DNA from: Magnolia sinica
Lineage: Eukaryota; Streptophyta; Magnoliopsida; Magnoliales; Magnoliaceae
Length of the DNA stretch: 64,000 bases
NCBI RefSeq assembly: GCF_029962835.1
Contig: NC_080590.1
Span: forward strand, 63,796,001-63,860,000
Direction of reading: 5' to 3'
Each line of letters starts with the position of its first letter. Within the stretch, counting starts at the first letter, position 1. A program made the translations under genes and the position numbers. Shown one piece after another: positions 1 through 29,040 of this stretch. The notes below the pieces were generated by a model. That model saw nothing but the letters and a program-made list of their open reading frames with translations, was not told where the DNA came from and did no database searches.

Positions 1-440
1 TTATCGGTCAATTTCAAGAAGTTCGCGGTCAATTTCACGAAGTTCTCGGTCAATTTAATGAATTTATCGGTCAATTTCATGTGCTTCTCAGTTAATATCA
101 CTTAGTTCTTGGTCATTTTCATAAAGTTCTCGATCAATTTCTATAAAGTTCTCGGTCAATTTAGTGAATTTCCCAGTCAATTACATCGAGTTCTCAGTCA
201 AATTCAATGGCTTAGAACTCAATTTCACTCAGTTCTTAGTCATTTTCATTACGTTATCGGTCAATTTCACTTAGTTATCGGTCATTTTTATTAAGTTATT
301 GGTCAATTTGGTGGTCATTGAAATGCACCGAGAAGTCGGCCATATTGACCGAGAACTTCATGAACTCCTTGCAATTGATTGATTGAGAACTTGGAAAATT
401 TGATTGATAAGTCGGTCATATTTCACCTAGTATACTAGTG
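1..440. repeat. 21-bp tandem array, outer variant, left copy
   Basis: Degenerate head-to-tail array of a 21-bp unit, read on the + strand as roughly tcggtcaatttcacttagtt plus one base. It runs off the left edge of the window. From about 300 to 400 the orientation flips (gaccgagaacttcatgaa), giving a small foldback, and the repeat then fades. The monomer has the AACT(A/G)AGT variant that is also seen at 21300-22875, not the GAAGTGAGT variant of the arrays at 4851-9536. The array lies directly upstream of the mudrA-like gene and may belong to the end of that element. Confidence 0.85.
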
Positions 441-528
441 AATTTCCTAATACTTGGTCAATTCCACCTTATACATGTGAATATTAAACGAGTTATATCT
501 TATGTGTCATTGTGTTTGTTTTCAAAAA

Positions 529-2755
529 ATGGCTTCGTAAATCATCGTATGCTCTTATGGTGGGGAGTTACTAAGTGAAAACAATTGATACATGTACAAG
601 AGTAGAAAATCGAAAAGTATTGTTGTGGGCGTCGAGACTACATATGAGGAGCTTCTATCTAAAATGTATAGGATTGTGAAGAGTACACTAAAGGATTATG
701 ATATTAGGTTAAAAGTATTATACCCTTACTCAAACCAATCAATCCCTCCAACCAAAATTGAAGCGACGAAGATGTGAGAGTGTTCTTGGCAACACAGTTG
801 GAGCATTCGGATAAATATACCCCTTTAATCATTGAGACAATGCAGCGCATTAATGAGATAATACTCAAAGGCCCAATAGCTTATAGTGTGGGGTGTCGAA
901 CATGACTCCCTAGCAGTTGGAAGTTTAGGTGAGGAACATGGCGTGAAATATGAATATATGACATCACCTTCACAAGTTTCTCTAAGCAACACTCCACTAC
1001 TCGAGCCAGTTCAGACATCAAACTTCATGACTAGTCAGTGAGCTAGACAGGTGACCTTAACTTCAGAAGTGAATATAAGGCATCACCTTCATCTACAAGG
1101 GTAGATTTGCCTTCATCATCCAATGCCAAATTTGTACTAGGAAGTGACATTCCATCGCCCGAGCAGGCTCGAACATCAGACTTCATCATCGGCCAAGTTA
1201 TTGTGCCTTTCGAGGAAGCTGCATTCACCAATGTAGAGCTGTCACATTATTCATATTCATTGGATGAGCTAATTGATATCGCCATGGGCCAAACATTTAA
1301 GGACAAGAACTGGTGTCAGTATGTTTTGAGCCAATTTACAATTCGCAACAACTTTCATTACAGGGTTTTGTACTCGTCACCCAAGAAATTCACCGTGGTG
1401 TGTTTCGAAGATAAGTGTGAATGGAGGTTACACGCATCTAGGGTGAATGATGAGGGGATATTTAAGATAAGGACTTACACGTCCATATATGCATGTGGCA
1501 TGTCATGGATGAAGAGTGATCACCGGCAAGCAAGCAGTAAGTTAGCCAATGAACTGGTTGTTAGTCGCATTGAACAATGCCTAGGATTAAGGCCGATGGA
1601 CATTAACTTCGTAATGCAAGAGAAGTATAATATTCTTATTAGTTATAAGAAGGCATGGCGCATTAAGGAGATCGCAATCAATCGCGTAATAGGGTCTTAT
1701 GAAGACTCTTATAATGAACTCCCGATGTACTTGCATGAGTTGAGGAGGCGATCCGGGGATGGTGACTGCCATGCTTGTTAATCCACAGACGAGCAGGTTC
1801 GAGAGATGTTTTGTTGTGCTCGGACAATGCGTTACAAGTTTTCAAATATCTCGACGAAGGTTCTTAGCCATTGATGGCACGCATCTAAAAAGGTAAGTAA
1901 AAGGGTGTTTTATTCATTGCTATAGCCTTGGATGATGACAATCATATTTTTCCAGTCACTTTTGGTATCGGAGAATCAGAGAACAACAACAGTTGGAACT
2001 GGTTCCTTACCCACCTCAACTGTACATTAGGGGATCTACCTTGTCTTTTGATCATATTAGACTGACATAAAGGTCTAATGAAAGAAGTTCAGGTCTTACA
2101 AAATACAATCCATGGCTACTGCACCTACCATATATACCGAAATTTGGTGGACACGTTTAAAGACAAGTCGTTAGAAATCTACTATTAGCGAGCTGTAAAG
2201 ACTTGTAGGAAGGCTGAGTTCGAGAAGTTAATGCATGATATCGAACTTGCCAATCCCCCAGTCACGCATGACTAAGAGAAATAGGATATGAAAGGCAGAC
2301 ATCTTCGCACTTTTCAGGAAAAAGATTCAACTTGGTCACTACAAATATAGCTAAGTGCGTTAATGCTTTATTCAAAGGAGCACGAGAATACTCTGTGACT
2401 ATATTGATAGAGACGGTCATATTTAAAATTCAAGAAATATTCTATAAGTGAAGAGAATTTGCATCATCATTTGTAGGATCATTGACACCGTGGGCCAAGA
2501 AATAATTAAAGGATCTCATACCGAAGCCGTGAAATGTTTGTTGCCATGCAATTTCTCGCGATGAATACTATATTGTGGGAGACTACAACGATACTTTCAA
2601 GCTCAATGAGCTTTCCCATACATGTCGCGAGTTTGACATAAAAGGGTTCCCTTGTTTTCATGTTCTTTCAACATGTATAAACTATAATCTTCCTCATTAT
2701 TCATATTATTCCCCATTGTACACGATGAGAAATTACTAGATCACGTATGATGATT
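529..2755 (+). pseudogene. mudrA-like (MULE) transposase, N-terminal and catalytic part, broken
   Basis: Remnant of a Mutator-family transposase, the enzyme that cuts and moves MULE DNA. The ATG at 529 opens a frame with stops a few codons in; it then reads through YMYKSRKSKSIVVGVE and an N-terminal block with YDIRLKVLYPYSNQS. A frameshift near 768 moves the frame. The 1107-1781 segment holds the plant MuDR N-terminal domain (CEWRLHASRVN, then QASSKLANELVVSRI). Further on, FLAIDGTHLK near 1855-1890 is the start of the MULE catalytic domain with its first Asp; after another frameshift at about 1897 come IFPVTFGIGESENNNSW and a degraded second Asp site. Near 2600-2700 a SWIM zinc finger is recognisable (THTC-like start, then GFPCFHVLSTC). 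Many stops and frameshifts make it non-functional. It is cut at 2755 by a solo LTR and resumes at 4234. Family assignment is firm; exon or frame limits are approximate. Confidence 0.88.
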
Positions 2756-4233
2756 TGTTCACAACCCTAAGTGTAGGGTCGCGATGTAGTAATAACTTGG
2801 TAAGACCGATGTTGAATCCACAAGGACTAAACTTGTGTGTATTCTGAGAAGAATTAGAAGTAGAACTAGAAGAAGATGTAAATTTGAATTCTGAAATAAT
2901 TGAAAGTGATTGTGAATAAGGTTGATTAAAACTTATGAATTTAAAGGTGGGAACTAGGGTGGCAAGGATCCACTTGTAGCTATCAAGATGCCACCTTACT
3001 TGATTTAGGAGATGCAACTGGAATCAGAGTCCTATCTTATCCAGTTGGAAAAAGAGATTATTAAATCTCTGAACTTTTCATTAAACTAGCCTCAATAGAT
3101 GAAGATTTGGAAGGGATTCCATCACCCTACCATGCCCAGGAGATGATGGTGAACAATAAGATTTACCAATCTCACAATCTCAAATAAGAAAAGAAGATAT
3201 TTAAAGCTATCGCAATGTCTATTGTAATTTGAGTCACAACAAACCATAGAAAACTGAAAATATTCCTTAAAATCCTAGAAATCAGTGAAGTTCAACATAA
3301 ACGAGAATCAAAGCAAGATAAACGTCCCCATCATGCTATAAGCTTCACCTCTTAGCCCTAGCTAAGAGGTTTAGTTAACCATAGACATGATTAAACCAAA
3401 ATCTCTCAAACAAAACATGAAACAAACTAAGGAAGAATAAGAAAAACTCTTGAGGGCAGCTCTCCTCTCTTTTGATCCACTCCTTAAACCCTAGAAGATA
3501 CCTATGAATGTTCTAGGGATTCCTATCTATAGTTGTGAAGCTCTACCTTACACACCGACTTGGAATTTTCACAATTCGATTGGAAACTGCCTCAATTTAT
3601 GCATCCACATTACACATCGGTTAGACCGAAGTGACCTTCGGTCGAACCAAAGTCGAGACTAAGCTCGGACAGGATTCTGTTTCGTCAGTTGACTGATTTT
3701 AGTTGTAACGAGCATGGGTTCGGTTGGACCGAACTTAAGTTATCGGTTGGATCGAATTAATATTCAGTCGAACCAAATTAACTCCAAAATTCATCGTTCT
3801 TCGCTGGAGCTTTTTGTGCCTTTATGGTCGCACCGAATCCTCCCTTTGATCGGACTGAATTGTCTATCGGTCGAACCAAATTAGCTTTCGAATTTCATGT
3901 TTGGTTGCTGGACTGTTTTGGGCGAGTTTGGTCAAATCGAATTGTTTATTTTCCTATCGCAGATTCTATATTCTTTAAGGTCCTTTCTTCATCATTTGTA
4001 CTTGGTTTCCTTGGATATTTGGCATGTGAATTCTTTATTCTTGGTCTCCTAAGATCCATCATTTGCCTTAGTGATTCTTGAGCATTAAATTCATGCTTTT
4101 AGCATTCGTTTCAATCCAAGTCCTCAGATTCACCTCGCAACACAAACATGTATAAAATAAACTATTAAGCATTATCATGTTCATGAAACCAAGATATAAA
4201 TAGGGGAGAATATGCAATATTTGACACTTAACA
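2756..4233 (-). mobile_element. Solo LTR, Gypsy-like family X, copy A
   Basis: Starts TGTTCACAACC and ends TTAACA, with near-matching 5-bp flanks tgatt (2751-2755) and cgatt (4234-4238), as expected for an LTR with a mutated target duplication. No primer site, polypurine tract or coding interior is attached, so it is a solo LTR. Orientation is inferred from copy C (44558-56035), where the same end is followed by a tRNA-Asp-like primer site on the - strand. It contains clustered words of the form CGGTTGGACCGAA and CGGTCGAACCAAA between 3605 and 3945. It interrupts the mudrA reading frame between the SWIM finger and the zinc knuckle. The short open frames inside it are not genes. Confidence 0.8.
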
Positions 4234-4450
4234 CGATTCCGTGCATCTAGCATGTGACAAGAGCCAATGGAAAATATCACTTGAATTCAGGGAATATTGT
4301 GCGAGAATTAAGCCCCCATGACAAAGGAGGTCAGCTGGAAGATCGAAAAAGGCAAGAATTCTTTCTCATGGAGAGGAATGAAAAATGGTAAAATGCGGAA
4401 GACGCAAACAAATAGGGCATAATCGTCGAAGTTGCAAGTTTCTGATACCT
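4234..4450 (+). pseudogene. mudrA-like transposase, C-terminal zinc-knuckle fragment
   Basis: Continuation of the transposase after the solo LTR. In frame fragments read GRSKKARILSHGEE, followed by CGRRKQIGHNRRSCK. This is the CCHC zinc knuckle that closes many plant MuDRA-type transposases, here with its second Cys lost. Stops occur before and inside it. Its position right after the LTR shows that the LTR landed inside a once continuous transposase gene. No further coding sequence is seen after about 4450. Confidence 0.8.
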
Positions 4451-4850
4451 CTGGCATAATGTAATTTGTAATGCATTTTTTGTAATGTGACAGTGAATGA
4501 TATAAATCGAAGATGTTTGTTACATTTTTTGAAATTGCGGGTTTACTACTATGATTCAGACTTTGAAAGAATAAATAATAATCATGAAAAGGAATACTGA
4601 CCCTGAGTATGATTGAAATGAATACGGTCAGTTCACTCAGTTATCAGTCAGCTCATGTACAATTTATACGCCTTTTCCATATCCATCACAACTCCCAATT
4701 GGCTTAATACATGATTGCCATGATTTCACAGTTAATTAGCATGAGTTATCGATAAAGTGTAAACCTCCATTTTGAGCAGTCTCAATTTAATTACCAAAAC
4801 AGTAAAGTGATTTGCTAACATCAATGAAAGAGTCTATTATACCGTTATCA
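4451..4850. other. Non-coding, 3' flank of mudrA
   Basis: AT-rich sequence without recognisable coding or repeat structure. It connects the end of the transposase remnant with the start of the 21-bp array. No terminal inverted repeat could be recognised by eye. Confidence 0.5.
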
Positions 4851-5540
4851 GTGAATTTCACTAAGTTATTGGTGAATTTCACTCATATATCAACCAATCT
4901 TCGCGGCCAATTTCACTCACTTCGAGGTCAATTTCGCTTACTTCCCGGTCAATTTCACTCACTTCGAGGTCAATTTTCCTAACTCTTAGTCAATTCACTT
5001 ACTTCGCGGTCAATTTTTCTAACTTCTCGGTCAAGTTCACTCACTTCGCGATCAAATTTACTCACTTCGTGGTCAACTTCACTCACTTCGCGGTCAATTT
5101 CACTCACTTTAGGGTGAATTTCAGTCACTTCGCGGTGAACTACACTCACTTCACGGTGAATTTCAATCACTTCGTGGTCAATTTCACTCACTTGGCGGTC
5201 AATTTCACTCAGTGCGTGGTGAACTTCACTCACTTTGCGGCCAATTTCACTCACTTTACAGTCAATTTCAATTGCTTCGCAGTCAATTTAATCACTTCGC
5301 GGTCAATTTCACCCACTCGCAGTGAATTTCACTCACTTCGCGATCAATTTTCCTAACTTCTCGGTCAAGTTCACTCACTTCACTGTAAATTTCAATCACT
5401 TCGCGACTAATTTCACTTACTTCGCGGTCAATTTCACTTCATTCGTGGTCAATTTCATTCACTTCACGGTCAATTTTACTTCATTCGCGGTCAATTTCAC
5501 TCACTTCGCGGTGAATTTCACTAACTTTGCGGTCAAGAGA
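4851..5540 (+). repeat. 21-bp tandem array, inner variant, left arm
   Basis: About 30 head-to-tail units of a 21-bp monomer, on the + strand close to cggtcaatttcactcacttc plus g. Units are diverged at scattered positions but the 21-bp phase holds over most of the block. The monomer carries the ACTCACTTCG variant. The array at 7985-9536 is the same variant in opposite orientation, so the two form a long inverted pair around the gene at 5829-7114. Because 21 is a multiple of three and the unit lacks stops in several frames, long spurious open frames occur on both strands. Confidence 0.92.
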
Positions 5541-5828: not shown

Positions 5829-7114
5829 CTATTGGTCGTCCGAGTTCGGCGAGGGACGGGGTGCTCTCACCTTTTGCACACAGCACAACACCGCCTTTAG
5901 CGTGCAGTACATATTTCGCATCTTGCACTTCAGGTAGTGTTGATCCTTCTTACTCTCAGCCATACTAGCATTGAGCACTCCTAAATGCTCCACTACGCCC
6001 AGAGGTGCAATTAGCACCTCTTCACCTCCCTGGAATGGAGCTCCCGTCTCATATGCATCCTCACCCTCTTTGTCTTCAGCTTGATCTTCTTCATCATCCT
6101 TTTCTTCTTCTTCATCTATCTCGTCCCCAAATTCTTCCAACCGTTGCTTATCTTGCTTGGGGCCACATTGCATGTGGTTTAATGTGTCTTCGGTTATCAC
6201 CCTTTCTGGCTTAACGGGGCCGCTAGATCCCTTGAACCCACACTGTCGGGCATCTTGCAAATCAGGCGGCCAAATGGGAGGCCCAATTTGCCTCTTTTTG
6301 ACTTGATGACCTTCACTATCTGGTAAAGGACTATTGAGGGCAGGCACGCATCCTCCCCATGCCCTACTTGGTACATTATCTTTGCCATGTAGATGGAAAT
6401 CTCCGTATGGTTTCCCCACCTCGGATATACATTGTATGTGAAAATGTAGTGCAGCAATCGGTAAATTGGTATCATGCTTGAGTTTCGTATACTACTATTT
6501 CTCCTCCACTCAATGAGTTCGCCGCACAAGCTCATGCTAAGCTCATCCATGTGCTGCCACGTATTCAAGTCCTTAGTGGTAATATGGACTGTTCCCCATG
6601 GCACATCAAGTATCTGTGTGATGATGGCTCTTACGTTGATGTGCACTACTCGATCTCTTTATGAAGTGTCAAATCCCCAAGGATCGAGCTTTGGACTACA
6701 TATTCGAGAGTAGAAGGACCTTACATCCTACGCATTGGTCTGATAGTTGCCTTCAGAAGCAGGTCCCCAACCGGCGTGCAGGAGTTGATCCAACATGTCG
6801 TTCTCATCAAACAGATTGTCCCCCACCATGACTTTGAAGACAACTTTTCGACCCCAATATCGACTCGCATCCAAAGGCCCCGCATCCCGATCATTAGCCC
6901 TTTTCGTCCTTCTTTCACGACGTGGTGGTGAAGGGCTCGCTGCATTGTCATTGGCCATCCTGACACTTCTTCGAATACATGGTGATGAAGGGCTCGCTTC
7001 ATTGTCAGTGGCCCTCCTCACCCTTCTTTCAGTCTGTGGTGATGAAGGGCTCGCTTCATTGTCATTGTCCATCCCCGACCTTGTTCCACGACTCACCGCT
7101 CTCTTCTTCCCCAT
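5829..7114 (-). pseudogene. Putative plant transposon protein (Transposase_32-like), broken
   Basis: Reads on the - strand from an ATG at 7114. The first about 60 residues are a basic, Ser-Pro-rich tail with three near-identical 19-residue repeats (DNEASPSSP...RRVRRA type), a plausible nuclear-localisation or DNA-contact segment. Then RYWGRKVVFKVMVGDNL and GWGPASEG precede an in-frame TAG at about 6728 and a TAA at about 6650; both lie in one continuous frame. The core IYRLLHYIFTYNVYPRWGNH, then GHGEDACLPSIVLYQIVKV and KLGLPFGRLICKM match what I know of the putative plant transposon protein domain found in several plant elements. A frameshift around 6200-6300 leads to an acidic tail with a run of Glu/Asp (EIDEEEEKDDEEDQAED). 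Function of the family is not established. It lies between inverted 21-bp arrays. Confidence 0.65.
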
Positions 7115-7189: not shown

Positions 7190-7690
7190 TTGTTAGGAAA
7201 TGAGAATTCGAATTGGGTAGGATGGTTATTTGGAGGATTTGGGTTTTGGAAAGAGTGGTTTGGAAGAAGAAGTAGGATTTTAGAAAGAAGGGTTTGGAAG
7301 AAGAAGTTGTGTTGTGAAAGAAGGGTTTGGAAGCAGAAAATGGGTTTTTGAAAGAAGGGTTTGGAATAAGAAGATGTGTTTTAGAAAGAGGGGTTTGGAA
7401 GAAGGAGATGGGTTGTGAAAGAAGAAGGTGGGTTATGAAAGAAGAAAATGGGTTGTGAAAGAAGAAGAAAGAGGGGTTTGGAGGAAGAAAGAGGGTTTTA
7501 GAAAGAAGGGTTTGGAAGAAAATGGGTTGTGAAAGAAGTGCTTGGAAGAAGGGATATGTTGTGAAAGAAGAAACTAGGTTGTGAAAGAGGGGTTTGGAGG
7601 AAGAGAGAGGGTTTTAGAAAAAAGGGTTTGGAAGATAGGTTGGAAGAGGGGTTTGTGAAAGAATGGTGTTAGAATATGTGGAAGAGGAGT
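7190..7690 (+). repeat. Purine-rich minisatellite upstream of the 5829-7114 gene
   Basis: Irregular tandem copies of a unit around 30-40 bp based on gaaagaagggtttggaagaa with gatgggttgtg or gggttttag inserts. The + strand is nearly all purine plus T; the - strand, which is the coding strand of the neighbouring pseudogene, is pyrimidine-rich. It begins about 75 bp before that gene's ATG, so it occupies the 5' leader or promoter region. Confidence 0.8.
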
Positions 7691-7984: not shown

Positions 7985-9536
7985 AGTGAATGAGAACATA
8001 GTGAAATTCACCGATACGTGAGTGAAATTGACCGTGGAGTGAGTGAAATTGATCACAAAGTGATTGAAATTGACTACGAATGAAGTGAAATTCAGAGAAT
8101 AGATTTCCAATTCTGACCCCCTTTTGGCCGTTCCATGGTTGAGGTGGATCAGAACATGGCCCAATATGAAGCAGAGATGATCTAGACCATCAGAATTTTA
8201 AATGGATGTATCTCATAAACCAAAATGAGTTGTCGGACATACCACATATGATTTTGGGGTAGGACAGGCTAATTTAGTGACACAACATGTTATGTCGGGT
8301 TGCGCATGCCAAATTCATGAGCTGTCTGAAATTAGCCGCTTCTTAAGTGAAATTGACCGCAAAGTGAGTGAAGGTCACCGTGAACTGAGTGAAATTCACC
8401 GCGAAGTGGGTGAAGTTCATACCGAAGTGAGTGAAATTCACCACGAAGTGAGTGAAGTTCACAGAGAAGTGACTGAAATTCACCGCAAAGTGAGTGAAGT
8501 TCACCACGAAGTGATTGAAATCGGCCACAAAGTGAGTGAAATTGACCACGATTGAAATTAACCGTGAAGTGAGTGAACTTGACTGAGAAGTGAGTGAAGT
8601 TCACCGTAAAGTGAGTGAAGTTCACCTTGAAGTGAGAGAAATTGACCGCGAAGTGATTGAAATTGACCACAAAGTGAGTGAACTTGACCGAGAAGTGAGT
8701 GAAGTTCACCGCGAAGTGAGTGAAATTGACTGCGAAGTGTGTGAAATTCACCACAAAGTGAGTGAAATTGACCACAAAGTGAGTGAAGTTCATCGCGAAG
8801 TGAGAGAAATTGACCGCGAAGTGAGTGAAGTTCATCGTGAAGTGAGTGAAATTGACCGTGAAATGAGTGAACTTGACCGAGAAGTGAGTGAAGTTGACTG
8901 CGAAGTGAGTAAAATTGACCGTGAAGTGAGTGAAATTGATTGCGAAGAGAGTGAAGTTCATCGCGAGTGAGAAAAACTGACTACAAAGTGAGTGAAGTTC
9001 ACCGCGAAGTGAGTGAAATTGACCGCGAAGTGAGTGAAATTCACAGCGAAGTTAGTGAAACTAATCGCGAAGTGAGTGAAATTGACCGTGATGTGATTTA
9101 AATTGATCGCAAAGTGAGTGAAGTTCATCCGGAACTGAGTAAAATTGACCGTGAAGTGAGTGAAATTGACCGCAAAGTAAGTGAAGTTCACCGCAAAGTG
9201 ATTAAAATTCGCCACCATGTGAGTGAAATTGACCATGAAGTGAGTGAAATTGACCACGAAGTGAGTGAATTTCACCGCGAAGTGAGAGAAATTGACCGCG
9301 AAGTGAGTGAAGTTCACCGCGAAGTGAGAGAAATTGACCGTGAAGTGAGTGAAATTCACCACGAAGTGAGTGAAATTAATCGCGAAGTAAGTGAACTTAA
9401 CTAAGAAGTGAGTGAAGTTCACCGCCAAGTGAGTGAAGTTCACCATGAAGTGAGTAAAATTGACCGTGAAGTGAGTGAAATTGACTGCGAAGTGAGTGAA
9501 GTTCACCTCGAACTGAGTGAAATTGACCAATACCAA
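7985..9536 (-). repeat. 21-bp tandem array, inner variant, right arm
   Basis: Array of the 21-bp unit in the orientation gtgagtgaaattgaccgcga plus a. A short outlying block (7985-8100) is separated by about 230 bp of unrelated sequence from the main block (8336-9536), which holds roughly 55 units in almost unbroken phase. Variants alternate between gaaattgaccgc, gaagttcaccgc and gaacttgaccga, with local higher-order patterns of two or three units. The orientation is opposite to that of 4851-5540. Translated, it gives heptads such as VSEIDRE on one strand and VNFTHFA on the other; I regard these as by-products of the period, not as proteins. Confidence 0.93.
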
Positions 9537-9789
9537 TTCACAAACAAATCACCATTCACGATGAAATCACTATTCATAAATAAATGAATTAACTATTCAT
9601 AAGCATGTCTTCATTCACCATGAATTTTATACAAGACATCATTCACAACAAATTATAACATTTCGCAAAATTTCCCCATTCCTCTCATGCCTAAGACAAA
9701 TGTCATCTATCGTGGATACTTAAACAATCATAGGATATTGAATTCCTAAAAATGGGAGTGAATTTTTACAAGTCTGTTCCTAATAAAAT
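9537..9789. other. Non-coding spacer with attcac words
   Basis: AT-rich, with repeated short words (attcac, cattcac) that look like array decay. It lies at the 3' end of the Ulp1 gene; no terminator or poly(A) signal could be assigned with confidence. Confidence 0.4.
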
Positions 9790-10637
9790 TCGATCGCTGC
9801 ACAGAATGTCAATATTTCATGAAAAATATGCTACAATCATATCCGTTCATCTACTTCAATGTGAAAATGTCTTTTCTGACGGTCTAATCATTCCCATCCT
9901 ACGCAAATGTATCTCCTGTGGCATGGAATATAATTGGCAATCCCTCCATCAGCTCGATCTGTTCCTTGTATCGACTGACTGCCCTCGAATATAAACTATC
10001 AAGAAGAAAAATTTCTCATTTTTCAGGGTGGATGACCATTAAGAACCAATGACTGTTGTCGTGGTTCAAGGGTATGTATGCCTGTCCATGTTTAACAAAA
10101 TAAGATATCATTAAAGAAATGATAGAAATGGGTACACCCAACGTTGATAAGTTGTAATGACAACATTACCCATTCATACTGCCACATGGCCTTGGCCCAT
10201 TCTCGATGTTTAACAATTCCAGTCACACCGACCTTATCGACTTATAATGCTTTTTGCTCTGAGTTGTTGCCTATGTCCCGATACATTCTCAATATCGACA
10301 TATTCAACTGGAGACATGGTTATTATAAATAGAACAAAAAATTAGAACAAATCTCATATAAACACAAAACAGAGTAACCATAATCCAATTTAAACATTTA
10401 CCAAAAAATATGTGGGGGAGAACTTGCAATCCTGAGTATACAACGTTGAAAGTGAATAATGCCTTCTCACCAGGAATTCAACGTATTTGTCAATAGCCTA
10501 ATCAATAAAATTTAATGATTAAGCTCACAGCTAATATAAGAGCTAAATACACATCCATATATGTATGTGAATTACTTACATCGCTATCAACCTATGCATC
10601 TTTTGCCCATATGGATTTGAACCAAATATATGTCGTC
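9790..10637 (-). pseudogene. Ulp1-like cysteine protease domain (3' half of split gene)
   Basis: C-terminal half of a SUMO-protease-like (peptidase C48) gene as found in plant MULEs. On the - strand, the exon cut by SIRE1 ends at 10580 with a good donor (gat|gtaagt). A probable exon at 10402-10497 reads AIDKYVEFLVRRHYSLST; another lies within about 10141-10309 (HREWAKAMWQYEWV). The last exon starts at 10081 after acceptor catggacag and gives AYIPLNHDNSHWFLMVIHP, with the catalytic His of the HW pair. It is followed by IFLLDSLYSRAV with the Asp, and near 9815-9845 by NGYDCSIFFMKY with the catalytic Cys. All three catalytic positions are therefore present, but in-frame stops (after HPEK and after FMKY) and a frame change before the Cys block show that it is dead. 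The 5' half lies at 19148-21204 beyond the copia element. Confidence 0.85.
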
Positions 10638-10642: not shown

Positions 10643-11097
10643 TGTAAGTGCTATGGTTTTATGATCCTTTAGTTGTCAAATTTTGTGGTGCCAAAACCTC
10701 AATCTATGTCTTGTGCAGCTCATTGTTATATATGTTCAAGACATTGCATCATCTCTTTAAAAAATTTTTTGCCTCAAGTCAAGACCGAAGATCTACTTCA
10801 TTTCATTTCAAGAAATACAAGTTCAAACTACAACGAAAAAAATGATCTTGTTCAAGACTCAGGTTTGTGTATAACTCAAGATGAAGTGTAATTCAAGCTC
10901 TAAAAGATCTCAAGTTCTATGCTATATCATGTAAAGAGATCTCAAGCTTCACAATCTTCAAAGGTCAACTATCATATGAAGAAAATGAAGTCTCGATGTT
11001 CATATCTCACTTTCAAGGTATGATTGACCTTAGATTGACCTTATGGTAGGTTATTTTATATACATAATTCAAATTGAATTACTTTACATGTATTTGG

Positions 11098-11509: not shown

Positions 11510-12567
11510 GAGCACGAATTTCAGAGTTTCATAACTCAATTCAAGTAAAATCAAGGCATCACTCTGAGATAAGTTTGTATTCATTTTAAGCTACTTTGTG
11601 CATATTTAATATTCTCTTTTGTTAGCTTTATAGATTTGATTTTGTTTCTATATTCCAATCTGAATTGAAAAGAGGAATTGTGATATTCCTTCTTCTTGGA
11701 ATCAAAATCAAATAGAGCTAGCCCAACTGGTTTAATTTAAAATCAATTAGAACCTAGAACCATTTTAAAGTGAGTATTGGACATTGAACTTCTACATTCG
11801 AATTTCTACTCTGATTGATTCTTCCGGGCTACTACAAAAAGAGAAATCCCAGTATTTTACATTTGTGTAAATTTCCTTTATTTTGGTTTCTTTTGAGATT
11901 AAGCCAGAAAAATCTCATTGTGTTGGTTATCTGAGGAGAGCCAGAAAACTCAGAAGTGGGGTTTTTGAATTGTGTAAGCCCATTTGAAAGACACAATTGT
12001 GAAGGTTTTAGGTGAACCTGAGAAACCTATTTTCATAGTGAATGCTAATATCCACTGTGTGAGGATATTAGGAGTGGAGTAGCAAGCTGTGTGGCTGTTG
12101 TTTAACAGTTGGTGAACACACAGGCGAACCACTATAACTCTTTGTGTTTTGTGGATGTGTGATTTATTTTTTCTATCTTTTATCATTCAAGTGTGTGGGA
12201 TGTATATGTGGATGTGAATGCTGTAATATTTACGTTTTAAGTATTGTGGGGATGTTGTAATAGTTTAGAATTTTAATTCCTTGCTATTTATTTATTCCTC
12301 TTCAGTTTGAATTTTTGATACTAATAACTTTCTAGAAATAAGGTTGTCCTGCCATAAACCCTTAGTTTTTATGGTGTAAGGTTGTTCTTAGAACAACATT
12401 TGTATCAACCTCTTAATACTTGATTATTGAGGCTGCTTTTCATTTCAGCATTGTGAATTGATTTCTTTTATTTGGCTATCATATTCTTTTATTCCGCTGT
12501 TAAAGTTTAAAATTTAGTATAGTCCTATTCACCCCCCCTCTAGGACATATAGCTTGGCTTTTTCAAG

Positions 12568-12579
12568 TGGTATCAGAGC
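12568..12579 (+). other. Primer binding site of SIRE1
   Basis: tggtatcagagc, two bases after the end of the 5' LTR. This is the standard copia primer site complementary to the 3' end of initiator tRNA-Met. Confidence 0.93.
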
Positions 12580-12649
12580 CTAATAACTCATTTTAATTCT
12601 TATTTTTTGGATTTATTTTCTAAGCTAATCGATCTAAGCTATTTATAAG

Positions 12650-14329
12650 ATGTCAAATTTTGATAGCCTTTCAGTCACCAGGCCTCCACCATTTGATGGC
12701 TCCAATTATGCCTATTGGAAAGCCAGGATGAGGATTTTCCTTAAATCCATGGATGAGAGTGTGTGGCAAGCCACAGTGACTGAATGGACCCCTCCTACCA
12801 TTGAAGTAACTGGTATCGATGGATCCAAATCAATGAAAGTCTCACCTTATTTTTCTTGGACCATACTTCAGAAAAGTGAGAGTTGTGCCAATTCAAAAGC
12901 ACTAAATGCAATCACTTGCGCACTATCACTGGATGAGTTCAAAAGAATTATATCCTGTGATACTGCAAAGCAAGCTTGGGATATTTTAGAAATGACACAC
13001 AAGGGAACATCAATTGTCAAGAAATCTAAAGTCCAACTCCTCACAACCAAATTTGAGGAAATATATATGGAGGAAATTGAAATTTTCATAGACTTTTATA
13101 CAAGATTAAATGACATTGTGAACTCTATGTGGGGTCTTGGCGATAAAATTCCAGAAAGTAAAGTGTGTGCAAAAATACTACGCTCATTACATGAATGGTT
13201 CAACTCAAAGGTTACCGCGATTCAGGAACTTCATGATACGGACAATATCAGGGTAGAAGAACTAATTGGGTCATTACAAACCTATGAGTTAAATTTCAAA
13301 GCTCTTAAAAGTAAATCTATTGCCCTTAAGTCTTCTAAAAATATTTCTCAAGAAAACAATAGCAGTTCTGATTTAGAAAATTCTGAAGACGATATGACTC
13401 TTTTAACAAAAAAGTTTTACAAGATTTTCAAAAGTAAAAAGAGGGTTGATTTTTAAAAATCAAATAATAAGAAAAGATCTAAATCTAAATCTAAAACTTA
13501 GAAATCTTTAAAGGATAGTTAATGTTACAACTGCCAAGAATATGGGCATTTAGCAAACAAGTGTCCTAAAAAGGAAAAACCCAAAAAGAAGAGTATGTTT
13601 GCTACTTGGGATGAATCTTCTGGCTCTGAAGCCTCTTCTGAATCAGAAGATTCTGAAAATGAGTCGGGCAATGAAGTTAAAGCCCTTATGACTCTAGCCA
13701 AGTTCACTTTTTCAGATCATGATGATTCTACTAGTGAAGAAAATATGATCATGAAAATGAAGAAGACCTTCAAGATGCTTACAATGTCCTATATAAGGAA
13801 ATTTGTAAAATTGCAGCAAAATTAAAACTTTAAAAAGAAAAGTTTTTAAAACTTAAAGAAAATTTTGATTCTCTTGTTTTAGAAAAATTTCATATTTCAA
13901 ATTGTTTTGAAAAATCAAAATGTGATTTAGATTTCAAAACTTCCTTGATTGAAAATCTAAAATCTGAAAATGAAAATCTTAAACTGGAAATCTCTTTTCT
14001 TTTGAGTTTAAAGGATACATGGAGGTATGCCCAAGGTGATCCTAAGTTAGAAAAACTTTTATCTGGATTAAGAAAATGTAGTGACCGATCTGGTTTGGGC
14101 TACGATAAAAATGTTCCTCCTAAACATGAAGAATACTTCTCCTAAGTTTGTAAAAAGAGAGTCCTCGAACTCAAAAGAGAAAAGTTCAAATCAAAAGTTT
14201 TCTAAAAATGCTAAAACATTTTAATCATTTAAACCTAAAAGTAATCATATCAACTATAATAATCAGAACCGAAACCTTTTAGCTGAGAAAATAGTTGATT
14301 TACTTAAGAAGCTCTTAAAATCTAACTCA
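12650..14329 (+). pseudogene. SIRE1 gag, broken
   Basis: Capsid-like gag of a copia element. The ATG at 12650 opens a 268-codon frame with RPPPFDGSNYAYWKARM, DEFKRIISCDTAKQAWDIL and LRSLHEWFNSKVTAIQEL, all usual for SIRE-type gag. A TAA stops it at 13454, but the same frame continues with a CCHC zinc knuckle (CYNCQEYGHLANKCP) at about 13526 and a Ser/Glu-rich acidic stretch. Further stops and shifts follow, then a coiled-coil-like segment (13945-14145, KSENENLKLEISFLLSLKD) before the protease. Truncated relative to a working gag. Confidence 0.9.
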
Positions 14330-16502
14330 GTGGGTCATTCTTACAACAACTACAAATATAAGAAGACCAACTATACTCCTAAACCCAAAACAGTTATGAA
14401 ATGGGTTCCTAAGGTTACTTGCTTGGTTGCCCACACAGCTTTTAAAGCTTCAAGCCATTCAAAGTGGTACCTAGACAGTGGATGCTCCAAGCACATGACT
14501 GGTGACAAAGGTCTGTTCACCACTCTTAAAGATATGACTGATGGTTTAGTCACATTTGGTGATGGTAGCAACTACAGGATTATTGGCCAAGGTATGGTTC
14601 AACTTTCTAACCTCCCCTTATTTGAGAATGTTCTTTACGTTGAAGGTTTAAAATTACCATAACTTGTTAAGCATTTCTCAAATATACGATAAAAATCATA
14701 GTGTTAAATTTTCTAACCTAGGGTGTAAAATATTAAACAAAAATGGTTCAGTAATATTAACCGGTCGTAAAACTTCTGAAAACTACTACATCATAAGTGA
14801 TTCTAGCTTATCTAATTAACTGTGCTACCTGGTCCATACCGATGAGACCGAGTTATGGCATAAACGTCTTGGACATTTACACTACCACAATCTCTATAGA
14901 TTGAGCAAAAGAGAACTAATAAGAGGTCTACCTAAATTATAAAAAATAGATAAAATATGTGGCGAATGCCAGATTGGCAAGCAATCAAGGAGCTCTTACA
15001 AGAAGGTGAACTCCAATGCCACATAAAAACTACTCGAACTTCTCCACATGGATCTTGTAGGACCAACCAGGATGAAGAGTCGAGGTGGTAAAAAATACAT
15101 ATTGGTAATCATAGATGATTTTACCAGATTCACTTGGGTAGCCTTCCTAAGGGATAAATTAGAAACCCTTGATGAAGTAAAAATGATTATCAAATGGATC
15201 CAAACTGAAAAAGGTTCTCAAGTCAATAAAATCCGTAGTGGTTATGGATCTGAGTTCGAGAATAGCAGTTTTGAGAAATTATATTGCGATCAAGGAATAC
15301 TACATGAATTCTCTGTACCTAAAACACCATAACAAAATGGTATAGTTGAAAGAAAAAATAGAGTGCTTCAAGAAATGGCTAATGTAATGTTGAATAGTAT
15401 GAAGCTATCTAAAAATCTTTAGGCTGAAGCCGTAAATACTGCTTGTTATATAATTAACTGGGTTTATACAAGAAAGTTAAATAATAAAACTGCTTATAAA
15501 ATGTGGTTCAATAAGAAGCTTACTGTCAAATACTTTTGACTTTTTGGCAGCAAATGCTATATTTTACGTGACCGTGAAAATCTAGGAAAGTTTGACACTA
15601 AAAGTGATGAAGGGATCTTTTTAGGATATTCTTTAAACAGTCGCGCTTATTGAGTACTGAACAAAAGGACCGGTGTTATTCAAGAATCTATTAATGTAGT
15701 CATAGACGATCACTTGAATACACCTGCCCCAAGTTCAGATAATGATGAAGTTCTTTTAATTGACAAACCAGATACTTCATCAAGTCAAGACAATTTAGAA
15801 CTGAGGACTATTAAAGATCATTTAACTACTCAGATTCGTGGAAACCCTCTCACTGGTGTTCGCACTCGTAAACAACTTGAAGACATATGTAATTACGTAT
15901 GTTTCACATCCCAGATAGAACCGGCTAACATAAAAGAAACTCTTATTGACGAAAACTGGATTGTTGCAATGCAGGAAGAGCTTAACTAATTTGTGAGAAA
16001 TGATGTTTAGTACCTTGTTCCTAGACCTAAAGATAAACATATTATCGGTACTAAGTGAATTTTCAAAAATAAGTCTGATGAACTTGGTAATATAATTCGA
16101 AACAAGGCTAGACTGGTTATACAAGGGTACACTCAAATTGAAGGAATTGATTATGATGAAACGTTTGTCCCAGTAGCTCGTCTTGAATCAATTAGACTAT
16201 TCATATCTATTGCTTGCTTTAGAAAATTCAAAATTTATCAATGGATGTAAAGAGTGCCTTCTTAAATGGTGATCTACATGAAGAAGTGTATGTGGAACAA
16301 ACAATGGGTTTTGAAGACCCTAAGAACACTGATCATGTCTATCGCCTTAAAAAAGCTCTCTACAGATTGAAACAAGCTCCCAGGGCATGGTACAAAAAAT
16401 TGACTAAGTTTTTACTAAGTCATAATTTTCAAATGGGAAGTGTTGATAAAACTTTGTTTGTTATGAAACATAACGATGATATCTTAATGGTACAGATCTA
16501 TA
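14330..16502 (+). pseudogene. SIRE1 pol: protease, integrase, partial RT, broken
   Basis: Protease: WYLDSGCSKHMTG with the DSG active site at about 14470. GAG-pre-integrase: ELWHKRLGHLHYHNL, then a zinc-binding C..C (CGECQIGKQ). Integrase: HMDLVGPTR gives the first catalytic Asp near 15050; the second is lost, since the family's Asp is read as Gly in IRSGYGSEFEN (about 15240); the Glu block QNGIVERKNR remains. [49 protein letters not shown] and YIDDI near 16500, where the domain ends abruptly. At least ten stops are present, most at positions where the family has Gln, Trp or Arg. RNase H is missing altogether. Confidence 0.92.
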
Positions 16503-16725
16503 TTGATGATATTTTTGATGAACTTGAATCTAATTCTGCTAATGATCCTGACTATGAACCATCTGATTTTGATGCGCGTCTTCGTGCACTTGAGGAGAAG
16601 GTAGAGAACATGAATGTTGCCCATGATTTACAATTTAAATATATGCGAAAGTAACTTAGGTGCTTAAACAAGGGCCTTTATTAACTTGATCCTACCATAC
16701 CCGCTCCTTCCTCAGGATCTGATTA
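16503..16725 (+). pseudogene. SIRE1 third reading frame (ORF3) fragment fused to RT
   Basis: Directly after the RT motif YIDDI the frame reads into an acidic segment ([17 protein letters not shown]), then [12 protein letters not shown] and a stop at 16652-16654. The same segment occurs in SIRE2 at 52740-52985, well downstream of RNase H. The reading frame is continuous by chance of the deletion. It has a heptad pattern ([11 protein letters not shown]) suggesting a short coiled coil. SIRE elements often carry an extra, sometimes envelope-like, frame here; I see no signal peptide or membrane span, so no envelope role is claimed. Confidence 0.7.
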
Positions 16726-17226
16726 AGTGATTTACTCTTTGGTCTGTAATAACTTTTATTCTACTTTGCTTTATTTCAGTTTGTGAGACTGACTTTTTCT
16801 AACTTTGGTTTATGGTTTATGGTAAGTGAACTTGGACATTTCTTATATATCTTTCATATCTTGACTAATTACCTCCTTTATTACTCCATTGTTAATTGTT
16901 AGTTCTCCATATTGTTGTTTCTTCCTTTGTCATATTTTGACAAAAAGGGGGAGAATGTATTTGATTATGCATATGGATTGTGTTTGTGGAGTAGTAGCAA
17001 CATTTTTTTGAATATTTGTGTGCTACTCAGGGGGAGTACGTGGGGAGATGTTTTGCCTATGTTGTGCCTAGTTCATAATGTTGTACTGATGATAACTGGT
17101 GCATGATTCTTTAACCAGGTTGTAAATGGTTTTCTCTTATAACTAGTGCATACATGATTTTTTGTATGTGTATTGGTGATATTATTGTTGAGTATGTTTT
17201 GTCACAAATTTGACAAAGGAGGAAAT
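16726..17226 (+). other. SIRE1 3' untranslated region with repeated purine tracts
   Basis: Non-coding stretch with three G-rich purine runs: gacaaaaagggggagaatg near 16939-16957, cagggggagtacgtggggag near 17028, and gacaaaggaggaaat ending at 17226 directly before the 3' LTR, which is the polypurine tract that primes plus-strand DNA. The same three runs occur in SIRE2 (about 53202, 53268, 53411). Confidence 0.8.
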
Positions 17227-19142
17227 TGTAAGTGCCTATGGTTTTATGATCCTTTGGTTGTCAAATTTTGTGGTGCCAAAACCTCAATCTATGTCTTGTG
17301 TAGCTCATTGTTATATATGTTCAAGACATTGCATCATCTCTTTTAAAAAAACTTTACCTTAAGTCAAGAACGAAGATCTACTTTAATTCATTTCAAGAAA
17401 TGCAAGTTCCAGCTACAATGAAAAAAGTAATCTTGTTCAAGACTCAAGTTTGTGTATAACTCAAGATGAAGGTAATTCAAGCTCTAGAAGATCTCAAGTT
17501 CTATGCTACATCATGTAAAGAGATCTCAAGCTTCACAATCTTCAAATGTCAACTATCATATGAAGAAAATGAAGTCTCGATGTTCATATCTCACTTTCAA
17601 GGTATGATTGACCTTAGGGTAGGTCATTTTGTATACATAATTCAAAATGAATTACTTTACATGTATTTGGGCTATTCTAAGACTAGTCCTGAACCCTGTT
17701 CGACTAGTCTTAGCACTGCCTCGACCAGTCCAAAAAAATTCCATGACCAGTTATAAGGTTGTTGCAATTTTTCAAAATTTTCTGTTCATCCACGACTAGT
17801 CCTGGACTCTGTTCGACCGATCGTGTGAACAGTGCCGACTCGTCCTACGATCAGTCATGGATCTACGACTCAAACTATAGTAAGTAAATCTGGTGCCTCA
17901 CGACCAGTCATAGGGTGGTTACGACCAGTCGTGGAGGGATCACGACCGGTCATAGACTACCTTCGACCAGTCGTGGAACGGTTTGATCCGATCGCGCTCA
18001 AAATTCAAAATGTTATTGGTCCTACGACCAGTCGTAGTGTCCACAGGACCAGTCAAAGGTGCAATTTCTGCTATTATAAATAGAGCACAAATTTCAGAGT
18101 TTCATAACTCAATTCAAGTAAAATCAAGGCATCACTCTGAGATAAGTTTGTATCTATTTTAAACTACTTTCTGCATATTTAATATTCTCTTTTGTTAGCT
18201 TTATAGATTTGATTTTGTTTCTATATTCCAATCTGAATTGAAAAGAGGAATTGTGATATTCCTTCTTCTTGGAATCAAAATCAAATAGAGCTAGCTCAAC
18301 TGGTTTAATTTAAAATCAATTAGAACCTAGAACCATTTTAAAGTGAGTATTGGACATTGAACTTCTACATTCAAATTTCTACTCCGATTGGTTCTTCTGG
18401 GCTGTTACAAAAGGAGAAATCCAGGTATTTTACATTTGTGTAAATTTCCTTTATTTTGGTTTCTTTTGAGATTAAGCCAGAAAAATCTCATTGTGTTGAT
18501 TATCTGATGTAACACCCCGTATTTTCCAGTACTCGGGTTTTTGAATTGTGTAAGCCCATTTGGAAGACACAATTGTGAAGGTTTTAGGTGAACCTGAGAA
18601 ACCTATTTTCATAGTGAATGTTAATATCCACTGTGTGATGATATTAGGAGTGGAGTAGCAAGCTGTGTGGCTATTATTTAACAGTTGGTGAACACACAGG
18701 CGAACCACTATAACTCTTTGTGTTTTGTGGATGTGCGATTTATTTTTTCTATCTTTTATCATTCAAGTGTGTGGGATGTATATGTGGATGTGAATGCTGT
18801 AATATTTACGTTTTAAGTATTGTGGGGAATGCTGTAATAGTTTAGAATTTTAATTCCTTGCTATTTATTTATTCCTCTTCAGTTTGAGTTTTTGATATAA
18901 AGAACTTTCTAGAAATAAGGTTGTCCTGCCATAAACCCTTGGTTTTTATGGTGTAAGGTTGTCCTTAAAACAACATTTGTATCAACCTCTCAATACTTGA
19001 TTATTGAAGCTGCTTTTCATTTCAGCATTGTGAATTGATTTCTTTTATTTAGCTATTATATTCTTTTATTCCGCTGTTAAAGCTTAAAATTTAGCATAGT
19101 CCTATTCACCCCCCCTTTAGGACATATAGCTTGGCCTTTTCA
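17227..19142 (+). repeat. 3' LTR of SIRE1
   Basis: 1916 bp, TGTAAGTGCC...CTTTTCA, closely matching the 5' LTR with scattered substitutions and small indels. One block at 18508-18536 is unlike the 5' LTR. Followed by the gtctc duplication. Confidence 0.95.
18508..18536 (+). other. Foreign Gypsy-type LTR terminus inside SIRE1 3' LTR
   Basis: The 3' LTR reads tgtaacaccccgtattttcc and a few more bases where the 5' LTR (about 11931-11960) has gagagccagaaaactcagaa. TGTAACACCCCG is the usual first bases of many plant Gypsy LTRs, two of which seem to be present in this window (27479; minus strand at 39624). It replaces rather than adds sequence. Confidence 0.6.
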
Positions 19143-19147: not shown

Positions 19148-21204
19148 TTTGTTTGCATTATACTAACTCTCCAATTCTTGCAGTTCCTCCTCCGATATAA
19201 CCCTGAATGGGTCCATCTTAGCCTGAAAGGGTATCGGAGAAGTACAAAATTTGTTGGGTTTCTGAGAATCGGTGACGATGCTTAGAGTTGTTTAAATGAC
19301 AGAGATGGATAACAATGGAGAAACCTTATAGACAGACGGCTTCAAGACCCTCTTAGTTCTCTTCTGATAAACAATAGTAGACAACAATGATTTCTCACAT
19401 ACATTATCGTCTGTCACATTATATGGTTGAACCTCCGCCTCTCCATTCTCCTATTCCTTATCTTCCAAATCCTCTGATTGCCTATTGTTCTTCAACTCCT
19501 CCTTCTCTAACTCTTCCTTCTCCTTCCAAAATTGCCCCTTCTTTGTTAGAAATGCATCCATCTACTTCTTCAACTCCACCTTCTCCTCCTCTAAGTCTTC
19601 CTTGCACGTGTAACTTCTTCCTTCTCCTTCTTCAATTCCTCATTCTTCATCTTCAATTCTTGCTTCTCCTTCAAAAAAAAAAAAAAAATTCCCTCTCCAT
19701 CTTGAAAAATGCTCTCTCATTCAACTCTTCCCTTCTAACCTTAAGGCTTCCTTCTCCTTGAGTGCTAGTTCTATCTCATTCTCTATCAATTCTTCTCTCT
19801 CTTTCAGTTGGTGTTCCCTCTCGTTAATATGCTTTTCCTTCTGACTTAACTCCTCCCTATCTTTCTCTAATAATTCTCTCTCCTTCTTCAGCTCTTTCCT
19901 ATCCTCCCTTAGCTCTTCTGCCAATTCATATCCCTCTCCCTCTCCCTCTCCATCTCCGTCTCCTTCTCCCTCTTCCTCTCCCCTTTATTCTCCCTCTCCC
20001 TCTCCCTCTCCTTCACCACCCTGTTCGAACTCATTCTCTTCCATAACTTCATCCTCCCCATCTTTAATGCCCTATAAAATGAAGTAATGTATATATCAGA
20101 GGTGTAATATGTCACAGTAAATATAAAATTTCAATATAAAAGAAGACTCTTATGACATCTTACATTAAATCTATCACAGACCAAACGAACGGCCTTCGTC
20201 TCCAGTTCTTCACTGGTGAGTTCCAAGGTAAGGATTAATTTAGTCTGTAAAAGAACATCTTTCATGTTCATGTACAGTATAGAACATATATATTACAGTA
20301 AGTGACCATCTAGCTTGATATAAATTAGCTTACATCTTCACTCTCAAATATTTGATGAATTTTCTTGTACCTCCAACCCTTCCAGCCTTAGTATCGTATG
20401 AATCGTAGAATTTGGAAGGGAATATATGAAATGACACATTATCTAAGGGTCGGTACTCTCTCTACGACCCATATCTGTGACAGTGAATTAACAAGATGGG
20501 CTTAAGAAACTATAGTTTAGTATAAACTCTAAATTCAAATAAAAAAGGAAAGAATTCTTACTTGTATAGGAAAGATACAACCGTTAACATTGTAGCGAAA
20601 CCCATGTGATGCCATCGCAACACTTTCAACCCCTTCGGCCATTGTCTGAAAGGTCAAACTACCTCATGGATAACTATTGAAGTCTTCTAATGAGTCTACT
20701 AGGTCAATATACTTCGTGTTGCACATAATTTCCATGTCGGTTCCCCTAACAAACTACTCTATGTATAGGGCTACCTTCACGACATCTTCATGCTTATTGC
20801 TGTCAATTAATTTATTAAACACCTCTTGTACATATTTCTTTAAGATAGGATATTCTTTAAAGTACTTCTCTCTTATTGACTTCCTGGTATGATGGATTTT
20901 GGGTATACAGTCTTCAGCCCTGTTATAAGGGTGAAGTCCATCTCCGTAAATTTCAAACGTGTCCCCGGTATATCAAATAAAAGATCACCTCTGTATCTAT
21001 TAAAAAGTAGGTGATAGAAAGGTCCTATAAACCTAAATGATGGAATGTGTAGTAAAAAAGAGAATGGAGACTGCCAAAAAATATTTAATCTACTCTTGTT
21101 CTTCTCCAAACCACTCTTCACAGTATCAAACCACCACGTCAATGAGCATTTGTAGGATAAGTTCGGGACTCCAGCATCAAATCCGTTATGCGGAGACTTG
21201 CCAA
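19148..21204 (-). pseudogene. DUF1985 / coiled-coil part of split Ulp1-type MULE gene
   Basis: 5' half of the gene whose protease lies at 9790-10637. Exons on the - strand with clean splice sites: 21204-20562 (acceptor ccttgtag, donor caa|gtaagaatt), 20474-20334 (acceptor cactgtcacag, donor gat|gtaagct), 20244-20164 (acceptor cttttacag, donor aat|gtaagat), and 20071 onward (acceptor cattttatag). The first carries a DUF1985-type domain (LLFDIPGTRLKFTEMDFTLI, later LVDSLEDFNSYP and LTFQTMAEGVESVA); exon two continues it with WVVERVPTLR and GWKGWRYKKIHQIFE. Exon four encodes an acidic then strongly charged coiled coil (KERELLEKDREELSQKEKH and relatives) before SIRE1 cuts it. A frameshift near 20885 and several stops show decay. 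The 5' start is not found. DUF1985 plus Ulp1 is the known layout of proteases carried by plant Kaonashi-type MULEs. Confidence 0.82.
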
Positions 21205-22380
21205 CTACAAGGATGAATTGGAAAATATATCAATAATAAAGTTCAATATTTAATGAAGCATGATGTGAAAGTCGACTTGTTACGGTGAAAAATCATAAAG
21301 TATAGTGTTAGTTTCCCAAGTCGACTGTCAATTTTGGCAAATTCTAAGTCAAAATGCCCAACTTATAGGTGAATTTCAATAAGTTTGCGGCTTGTTTCAC
21401 TTAGTTATCGATCAATTTTTTGAGTTATATGTTGTATATTTGCCCGAGAACATTTTGAAATTGACTGCAAATTAAATGAAATTGGCCGCAAACTGAGTGA
21501 GATTGACCGCGAACTGACTAAAATTGACTGTGAACTGAGTGAAATTTGCCGTGAACTGATTGGCATTGACCACGAAGTGAGTGCAATGGACCGAGAAGTT
21601 GTGGAAATTGACCGAGAAATAAGTAAAATTAACCGACAACTTTATGAAATTAACCGACAACTTTATGAAATCAACCAGTCAGTTTCACTCAATTCTCAAC
21701 CACTTGCACTCATTTCTCAGTCAATTTCATGAAGTTGTAAGTCAATTTTCGTAAGTTCTTAGTCAACACGATGTCAATTTCAATTTGACTTGCCAACTAC
21801 AAGGATGAATTGAAAAATATATCAACAATAAAGTTTAATATTTAATGAAGCATAATGTGAAAGTTGACTTGTTATGGTAAAAAATCATAAAGTATAGTGT
21901 CAGTTTTCTGAGATAGCGGTCAATTTTGGTGAATTCCAAGTCAAAATGCCCAACTTATAGGTGAATTTTAATAACTTTGTGACCTGTTTCACTCAGTTAT
22001 CAGTCAATTTCCTGAGTTATATGCTGTATATTTTTCCGAGAACATCGTGAAATTGACTGTGAACTAAGTGAAATTGGTCGTGAACTGAGTGAGATTGACC
22101 GCGAACTGACTGAAATTGACCGCGAACTGAGTGAAATTGACCAAAAACATCATGAAATTGACAACGACGAAGTGAAATTGACTAAGGACTAAGTGAAATT
22201 GATCAAGGATTAAGCAAAATTGACCGACGACGAAGTGAAATTAACCAAGGACTAAGTGAAATTGATCTAGGACTAAGTAAAATTGATCGATAACTGCTTG
22301 AAATTGACATCTCGAACTGAGTTAAATTGACCGAGGACTCAGTTAAATTGACTGAGAACATCATGAAATTAATTGCAAAC
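21195..22380. repeat. 592-bp tandem segmental duplication
   Basis: gacttgccaactacaaggat begins at 21195 and again at 21787. After each start the same order follows: AT-rich spacer (tcataaagtatagtgt), ggtgaattt words, then a block of 21-bp repeats in - orientation. Copy 1 includes the first bases of the DUF1985 exon and its splice acceptor; copy 2 therefore carries an orphan exon edge. The copies differ at several percent of positions by eye. Confidence 0.85.
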
Positions 22381-22875
22381 TTAGTGAAATTGACCGCGAA
22401 GTGAGTGAAATTGACCGATAACTGAGCGAAATTGACTGAGAACTTGCTTAAGTTAGCGAAAGTGACCAATAACGGAGTGAATTTACCACGAACTTAGTGA
22501 AATTGACCGATAACTATGTGAAATTGACTAATAAGTGAGTGAAATTGACCGAGAACTCACTTAAGCAACTATCGGTCAACACGATGTTAATTTCAAGCAG
22601 TTCGGTCAATTTGACTCAGTTCTCGGTCAAGATGTCAATTTTAAGCAGTCCTCGGTCAATTTTACTTAGTCCTCGGTCAATTTCACTCAGTTCGCGGTTA
22701 ATTTAACTCAGTTTGCGATCAATTTAACTCAGTTCGCGATTAATTGAACTTAGTTCGCAGTCATTTTAACTCAGTTCGTGGTCAATTCAACTCAGTTCGT
22801 GGTCAATTTTACTTAGTTCATGGTCAGTTTAACTTAGTTCATGGTCAATTTTAGTCAGTCCTTTGTGTATTTCAC
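21300..22875. repeat. 21-bp tandem arrays, outer variant, right copy
   Basis: Blocks of the 21-bp unit in alternating direction: - strand form (gaactgagtgaaattgaccg) at about 21440-21690 and 22040-22560, + strand form (cggtcaatttcactcagttc) at about 21690-21780 and 22570-22875, so each duplicate holds a foldback. Monomers have AACTGAGT, as in the array at 1-440, rather than AAGTGAGT as in the inner arrays. This block sits upstream of the DUF1985/Ulp1 gene and probably marks one end of that element. Confidence 0.85.
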
Positions 22876-22880
22876 TCAGT

Positions 22881-29036: not shown

Positions 29037-29040
<4 letters not shown>

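Follow-up and report, generated by a model that had tools for sequence, protein, structure and literature searches.

A decayed Mutator-like element with arrays of a 21-bp motif and a possibly inserted PF20167 unit in Magnolia sinica

The first 22.9 kb of a 64-kb window of the Magnolia sinica genome (contig NC_080590.1, positions 63,796,001 to 63,860,000; the window is the whole stretch of DNA that was analysed) hold three broken transposon genes and four arrays of a 21-bp monomer, which we call A1 to A4 in their order along the window (Table 1). The outer arrays, A1 and A4, enclose a mudrA-type transposase gene and, on the other strand, a DUF1985/Ulp1 gene; the inner ones, A2 and A3, flank a third gene, with a PF20167 domain, between the convergent 3' ends of the other two. 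The inner arrays belong to one pool of monomers, run in opposite directions and are less diverged than the outer ones. We tentatively read the locus, with slightly less than even confidence, as a decayed Mutator-like element (MULE) of the Kaonashi/VANDAL kind, carrying arrays of the type targeted by VANC proteins and an inserted PF20167 unit. In the outer element of this reading, with mudrA on the plus strand and DUF1985/Ulp1 on the minus strand, arrays of the 21-bp motif would fill the noncoding parts, and, by analogy with Arabidopsis transposons, the element's DUF1985 protein would bind the tandem motif and keep the element family free of silencing. A second unit, consisting of the PF20167 gene between opposed arrays of a diverged form of the motif, would have entered between the two convergent genes, and a SIRE1 retrotransposon and a long terminal repeat (LTR) element, now a solo LTR, would also have broken into the outer genes.

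The 21-bp arrays and their two monomer pools

Tandem Repeats Finder reported rows of 21 bp at four places: 4–309; 4844–4883 and 4899–5536; 8000–8094 and 8346–9528; and several within 21456–22885. A scan of the 64 kb with the consensus gave 156 monomers, against 3 to 6 per run in five Markov-simulated runs, and all but 4 of the 156 fall in four blocks flanking the three genes. This distribution argues against a 21-bp satellite or minisatellite spread through the genome and lying here by chance, unconnected to the transposon genes, an explanation that we consider very unlikely. With a looser threshold, the blocks contain 167 monomers (18 in A1, 30 in A2, 62 in A3 and 57 in A4). The step between monomers is exactly 21 bp in 119 of 129 cases. 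Twenty-one base pairs correspond to two helical turns, and a constant step of this length would turn all sites to one side of the double helix.

We compared the monomers of the different blocks by their distances and by Fisher tests. The clearest difference is at position 4 in the frame GAANTGAGTGAAATTGACCGC, where the ratio of G to C is 79:7 in A2 and A3 together and 10:53 in A1 and A4 (Fisher 2.5e-22), with A or T in 18 of the 167 monomers. At position 16, C is found in 35 of the 92 inner monomers and in 5 of the 75 outer ones (p 1e-6); within the subset counted, this C is accompanied by G at position 13 in 17 of 55 A3 monomers, 2 of 29 A2 monomers and none of the 50 outer monomers. The palindrome GTGAANTTCAC is present in 23 copies in the window, 5 in A2 and 18 in A3, and nowhere else. 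Mean distances between monomers, expressed per 21, are 4.8–5.2 for the inner arrays, whether taken inside one array or across the two; they reach 6.9 within A4 and 7.8 within A1. The two inner arrays form one pool.

The outer class is looser. A first-pass annotation, made from the sequence alone, had recognised four blocks with two classes of monomers, and both the position 4 counts and the limitation of GTGAANTTCAC to the inner blocks bear this out. It had also given both outer blocks the form 'AACTGAGT' and expected the monomers to cluster into outer and inner classes. A4 is indeed of the C class and the inner pool is tight, but A1 fits the outer form weakly (C at position 4 in 9 of its 18 monomers, consensus GAACTTCATGAAATTGACCGA) and is no nearer to A4 (7.64 per 21) than to A2 (7.66), its distance to A3 being 7.96. 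When each monomer was assigned to its nearest block, that block was the class partner for 29 of 30 monomers of A2, 58 of 62 of A3, 13 of 18 of A1 and 8 of 57 of A4, the last figure being low because A1 is so diverged. Given this result and the distances of A1, we do not claim A1 and A4 as a clade, and the outer class is probably a shared, older base rather than a tight cluster. The outermost monomers of A2 (at 4848) and of A3 (at 9510) are of the C type, which suggests that C at position 4 is probably the older state.

All monomers of A2 and all those of A3 have the same orientation within their array, opposite between the two, and A1 and A4 are mixed (Table 1). A4 contains a tandem duplication with an offset of 592 bp (21195–21671 and 21787–22262, 82% identity over 477 aligned columns). 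A3 has no higher-order period, lags 1 to 12 being alike, and is interrupted at around 8100–8318 by a dispersed repeat. Members of this dispersed family, with about 72% identity, lie at 8130–8306 (inside A3), 36381–36557 and 59896–60066.

We also considered the arrays as coding sequence. Long open reading frames (ORFs) cross them, yet stops were not depleted in any of the 12 frame tests made on A2 and A3, six per array, against column-preserving shuffles (lowest P 0.15), and the arrays are therefore probably noncoding. A protein search with the array ORF retrieved three repeat-bearing, coiled-coil-like proteins that we judged unrelated, the sole one with a named organism being from a Chloroflexi bacterium. 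A 30-bp array pattern had 0 matches in viral contigs, and no tRNA genes were detected.

The outer genes and their resemblance to VANDAL and Kaonashi elements

The gene that follows A1 aligns over nearly its full length to transposase proteins and has the DNA-binding, MULE DDE and SWIM domains of a MULE transposase; the first and the last of these pass their curated cut-offs and the MULE domain is just below. It has 10 stops in 626 aligned codons. Five protein relatives were found, of which three are named, each from Magnolia sinica.

The DUF1985 domain is apparent when the sequence is read through, with a score one bit under the curated cut-off. Taken singly, its two ORF pieces gave a score of 0.11 and no DUF1985 match, respectively, and a comparison of the fragment with a protein database gave 2 candidates, none at E 0.001. 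The Ulp1 (Peptidase_C48) part scored 0.006 as a single piece, and it has recognisable motifs that we take to be those of the Ulp1 His (10043–10108), Asp (9989–10006) and Cys (9812–9850). This gene is in reverse orientation to mudrA, and we infer from their adjacency that one element carries both. A likely 3' splice acceptor precedes the DUF1985 exon where it adjoins A4, which makes an intron the likely position of this array. The domain matches (Table 1) support what the first-pass annotation had proposed, i.e., a mudrA-type transposase and a DUF1985/Ulp1 gene between the outer arrays and a different transposon-protein gene, now identified by PF20167, between the inner ones. The span without SIRE1 and the solo LTR, which had been put at about 14 kb, is about 12.9 kb by the coordinates, or about 8.2 kb if the inner block is also removed.

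Arabidopsis is known to have transposons with sequence-specific anti-silencing; their DUF1985 protein, VANC, is described as binding short tandem-repeat motifs and removing silencing (PMC5735166). In VANDAL21, tandem repeats bearing the motif lie upstream of VANA and in the introns of VANB and VANC, the motif types of VANDAL subfamilies differ by one base, and VANC proteins hold tandem peptide motifs (PMC5735166). Later work repeats the VANC findings and has RNA-directed DNA methylation opposing VANC on the same regions (PMC10398659). A review assigns the VANDALs with an Ulp1-domain VANC to the KIU type, acting on its own kind, and places the capture of Ulp1 at the monocot-eudicot split (PMC13317346). 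The Magnolia locus is like VANDAL21 and VANDAL6 in its mudrA-type transposase, its DUF1985 gene, its noncoding tandem motifs upstream of the transposase (A1) and at the DUF1985 gene (A4), and its motif types one base apart, as between their subfamilies. It differs from them in the strict 21-bp unit, in the density of the arrays and in the Ulp1 domain, VANC proteins being drawn with DUF1985 and DUF287 in PMC5735166; the likeness is one of layout. It also shares with the Kaonashi (KI) MULEs the Ulp1 gene placed in reverse to mudrA (PMC2528002), in a group of Ulp1-bearing MULEs known from Arabidopsis, melon, rice and grape (PMC2528002), but the PF20167 gene stands between the two genes, and the portions of the sources that treat KI elements do not mention 21-bp arrays.

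Since the same parts sit in the same places as in VANDALs, we prefer to regard the arrays as target arrays rather than as transposon ends. The first-pass annotation had seen them as satellite-like ends of a MULE and had named no precedent for ends made of a 21-bp satellite shared with another transposon type. The arrays are there, but no end role emerged for them and ends are probably not the best description, given that their positions match those of noncoding VANC-target repeats, which also provide a MULE precedent for such arrays (PMC5735166). Among the open-licence papers listed in literature searches, none was seen to describe the strict 21-bp form, an element of this type in a magnoliid, or the present array family flanking a PF20167 gene.

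A different view of the arrays is that they are long terminal inverted repeats (TIRs) made of tandem units, maybe with extra transposase-binding sites, in which case one foldback transposon would lie inside another. Foldback MULEs are known (PMC3169594, PMC4079207), among them Tm1, described as a family of the Mutator/Foldback type whose TIRs are composite (PMC3169594). As tandem-unit arrays in inverted arrangement, A2 and A3 resemble Tm1 (and, by reference only, FARE and Tnr8), and they would form the termini of the inner unit. However, the outer arrays are mixed in orientation, one of them adjoins the DUF1985 exon at its likely splice acceptor, and no target-site duplication (TSD) was found at the outer edges of the inner unit. 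We find the foldback explanation improbable and retain the VANC-target arrays as the better account.

Inserted unit or single three-gene element

The match of the inner gene to PF20167 (Transposase_32) is below the curated cut-off of 45 bits, both in one ORF and through its stops. The N-terminus of the gene has about three copies of a 19-residue basic, SP-rich repeat (a 57-bp DNA repeat, 6909–7074), and an acidic tail follows a frameshift near 6230. PF20167, or ATHILA ORF-1, was reported from the additional ORF of Athila (PMC11728184). The inner gene shares this domain with Athila; unlike in Athila, no LTR-like direct repeat pair was seen in the self-comparison and no gag or pol domain in the five ORFs scanned of 5541–7984, and 21-bp arrays flank the gene. 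The gap between the unit and the last mudrA match is about 390 bp, and that between it and the last scanned residues of Ulp1 is about 220 bp.

Nesting is modestly favoured over a single element, since A2 and A3 have a private pool, are each pure in orientation and opposed to one another, are less diverged than the outer arrays and lie between convergent 3' ends. Once SIRE1 and the solo LTR are removed, the coordinates place all neighbouring arrays about 2.5–3.3 kb apart, and distance thus fails to explain the resemblance between A2 and A3. The second, nested element proposed by the first-pass annotation is accordingly backed by indirect signs, while the direct one, a target duplication around the inner unit, was not found.

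The four arrays might instead be the noncoding regions of one three-gene KI/VANDAL-like MULE, with two motif types in one element. KI-MULEs are described with three genes (PMC13317346), and Hi carries VANA, VANB and VANC (PMC5735166). A single element would also agree with the lack of a TSD around the inner unit, with the C-type outermost monomers of A2 and A3 and with the presence outside A2 of a 32-bp fragment of the inner gene. It would leave aside that A2 and A3 share a private pool despite the similar spacing of all neighbouring arrays, that they are less diverged, and that PF20167 is published in an Athila element (PMC11728184), no MULE title having appeared among the papers listed by one literature search on PF20167 names. 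We regard a single element as rather unlikely, and we keep the inserted unit as the reading to be weighed below.

Several observations weigh against this reading. No TSD was found around the inner unit, the best of 638 edge pairs matching at 7 of 9 positions; a wider scan gave one pair outside the arrays that matched at 8 of 9 (4820/9580), but it does not lie at the edges and is close to what chance would give. The left end of the outer element, where one half of the 9–11 bp target duplication of a MULE would be sought, is outside the window, all three genes are broken, and no other copy of the element was seen in the window, which is the genomic sequence examined. A1 is not nearer to A4 than to A2, as described above. 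The three genes of KI-MULEs (PMC13317346) mean that the inner gene could be part of the same element. Stops are sparser in the inner gene (2 in 427 codons, 17 in 974 elsewhere), but with the paths of this gene and of DUF1985/Ulp1 traced by hand the difference is not significant (p 0.08). The 32-bp piece outside A2 is not predicted by a simple insertion; none of 300 simulated pairs was as good, there is no similarity beyond the repeat, and the piece may be repair filler, which would fit a rearranged left edge. Finally, the ratio of rare substitutions to indels is 21:1 in the arrays. The control value is 8.5:1 when two LTR pairs are pooled (p 0.03) but 16:1 for the SIRE1 LTR pair alone (p 0.61), and an actively kept 21-bp phase is thus not established.

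The edges of the inner unit were also compared with each other. A2 at its inner edge and A3 at its outer edge share a sequence that looked real at first and was not significant upon shuffling (P 0.13), and no inverted similarity was found between the two inner edges (P 0.52).

Table 1. Features of the array and gene region, in window coordinates.
Feature	Coordinates	Strand	Remarks
Array A1	1..420	-	21-bp monomers, 14 minus and 4 plus: minus to about 300, then few weak plus; upstream of mudrA; truncated by window edge
mudrA-type transposase pseudogene	1080..4450	+	DBD_Tnp_Mut 3.8e-13; MULE 4.8e-5; SWIM 2.1e-4; C-terminal part 4226–4450
Solo LTR in mudrA	2756..4233		TG..CA; 1.48 kb; flanks TGATT/CGATT, 4 of 5 bases alike; splits mudrA
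32-bp copy (30/32) of the 3' part of the inner gene (5804–5835)	4671..4702		Outside A2; unexplained
Array A2	4844..5537	-	G class; 30/30 monomers minus
Inner gene, PF20167 (Transposase_32)	5832..7114	-	2.6e-10 in one ORF; 1.5e-10 through 2 stops (41.7 bits)
A/G-rich degenerate tandem repeats	7240..7592		Upstream of inner gene
Array A3	7994..9532	+	G class; 62/62 monomers plus; 18 of 23 GTGAANTTCAC sites
Ulp1/Peptidase_C48 catalytic part	9749..10108	-	3.7e-9 through five stops; 3' part of DUF1985/Ulp1 gene
SIRE1-type Copia retrotransposon	10643..19142	+	Inside DUF1985/Ulp1 gene; 8.5 kb; TSD GTCTC; LTRs 93.4% identical
DUF1985 domain	20559..21229	-	3.5e-8 reading through stops and one frameshift; 34.0 bits, curated cut-off 35.1
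Array A4	21305..22890	+	C class; mixed orientation (33 plus, 24 minus); tandem duplication with second copy of likely splice acceptor

Related retrotransposons and significance of the locus

The two retrotransposons in the outer genes have relatives further along the window. An LTR-like sequence at 41766–43902, with flanks TTTGG/ATTGG, is related to the solo LTR of mudrA, and just before it lies a Copia fragment, whose match to gag_pre-integrs (2.4e-4) is under the cut-off for that domain. Two LTR-like copies with 97% identity (45450–47508 and 53426–55479) probably belong to a second SIRE-like Copia element, and the stretch 47244–51383 shares 80% identity with SIRE1 at 12287–16520. The window also contains a perfect run of 38.5 GA dinucleotides at 29039–29115.

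A bolder proposal, which we regard as a long shot, is that the locus holds two nested systems of arrays and protein in a magnoliid, the outer one with VANC/Ulp1 acting on the C-type motif and the inner one with PF20167 acting on the derived G-type motif and its palindrome GTGAANTTCAC. If this were true, sequence-specific anti-silencing would have arisen with a second protein family as well and would be older than the eudicots. The VANDAL layout together with a Magnolia-like transposase would in itself widen the known range of such elements, which may reach the magnoliids. Two motif pools at one locus, with the palindrome in one of them only, would offer a natural test of the co-evolution between a protein and its target.

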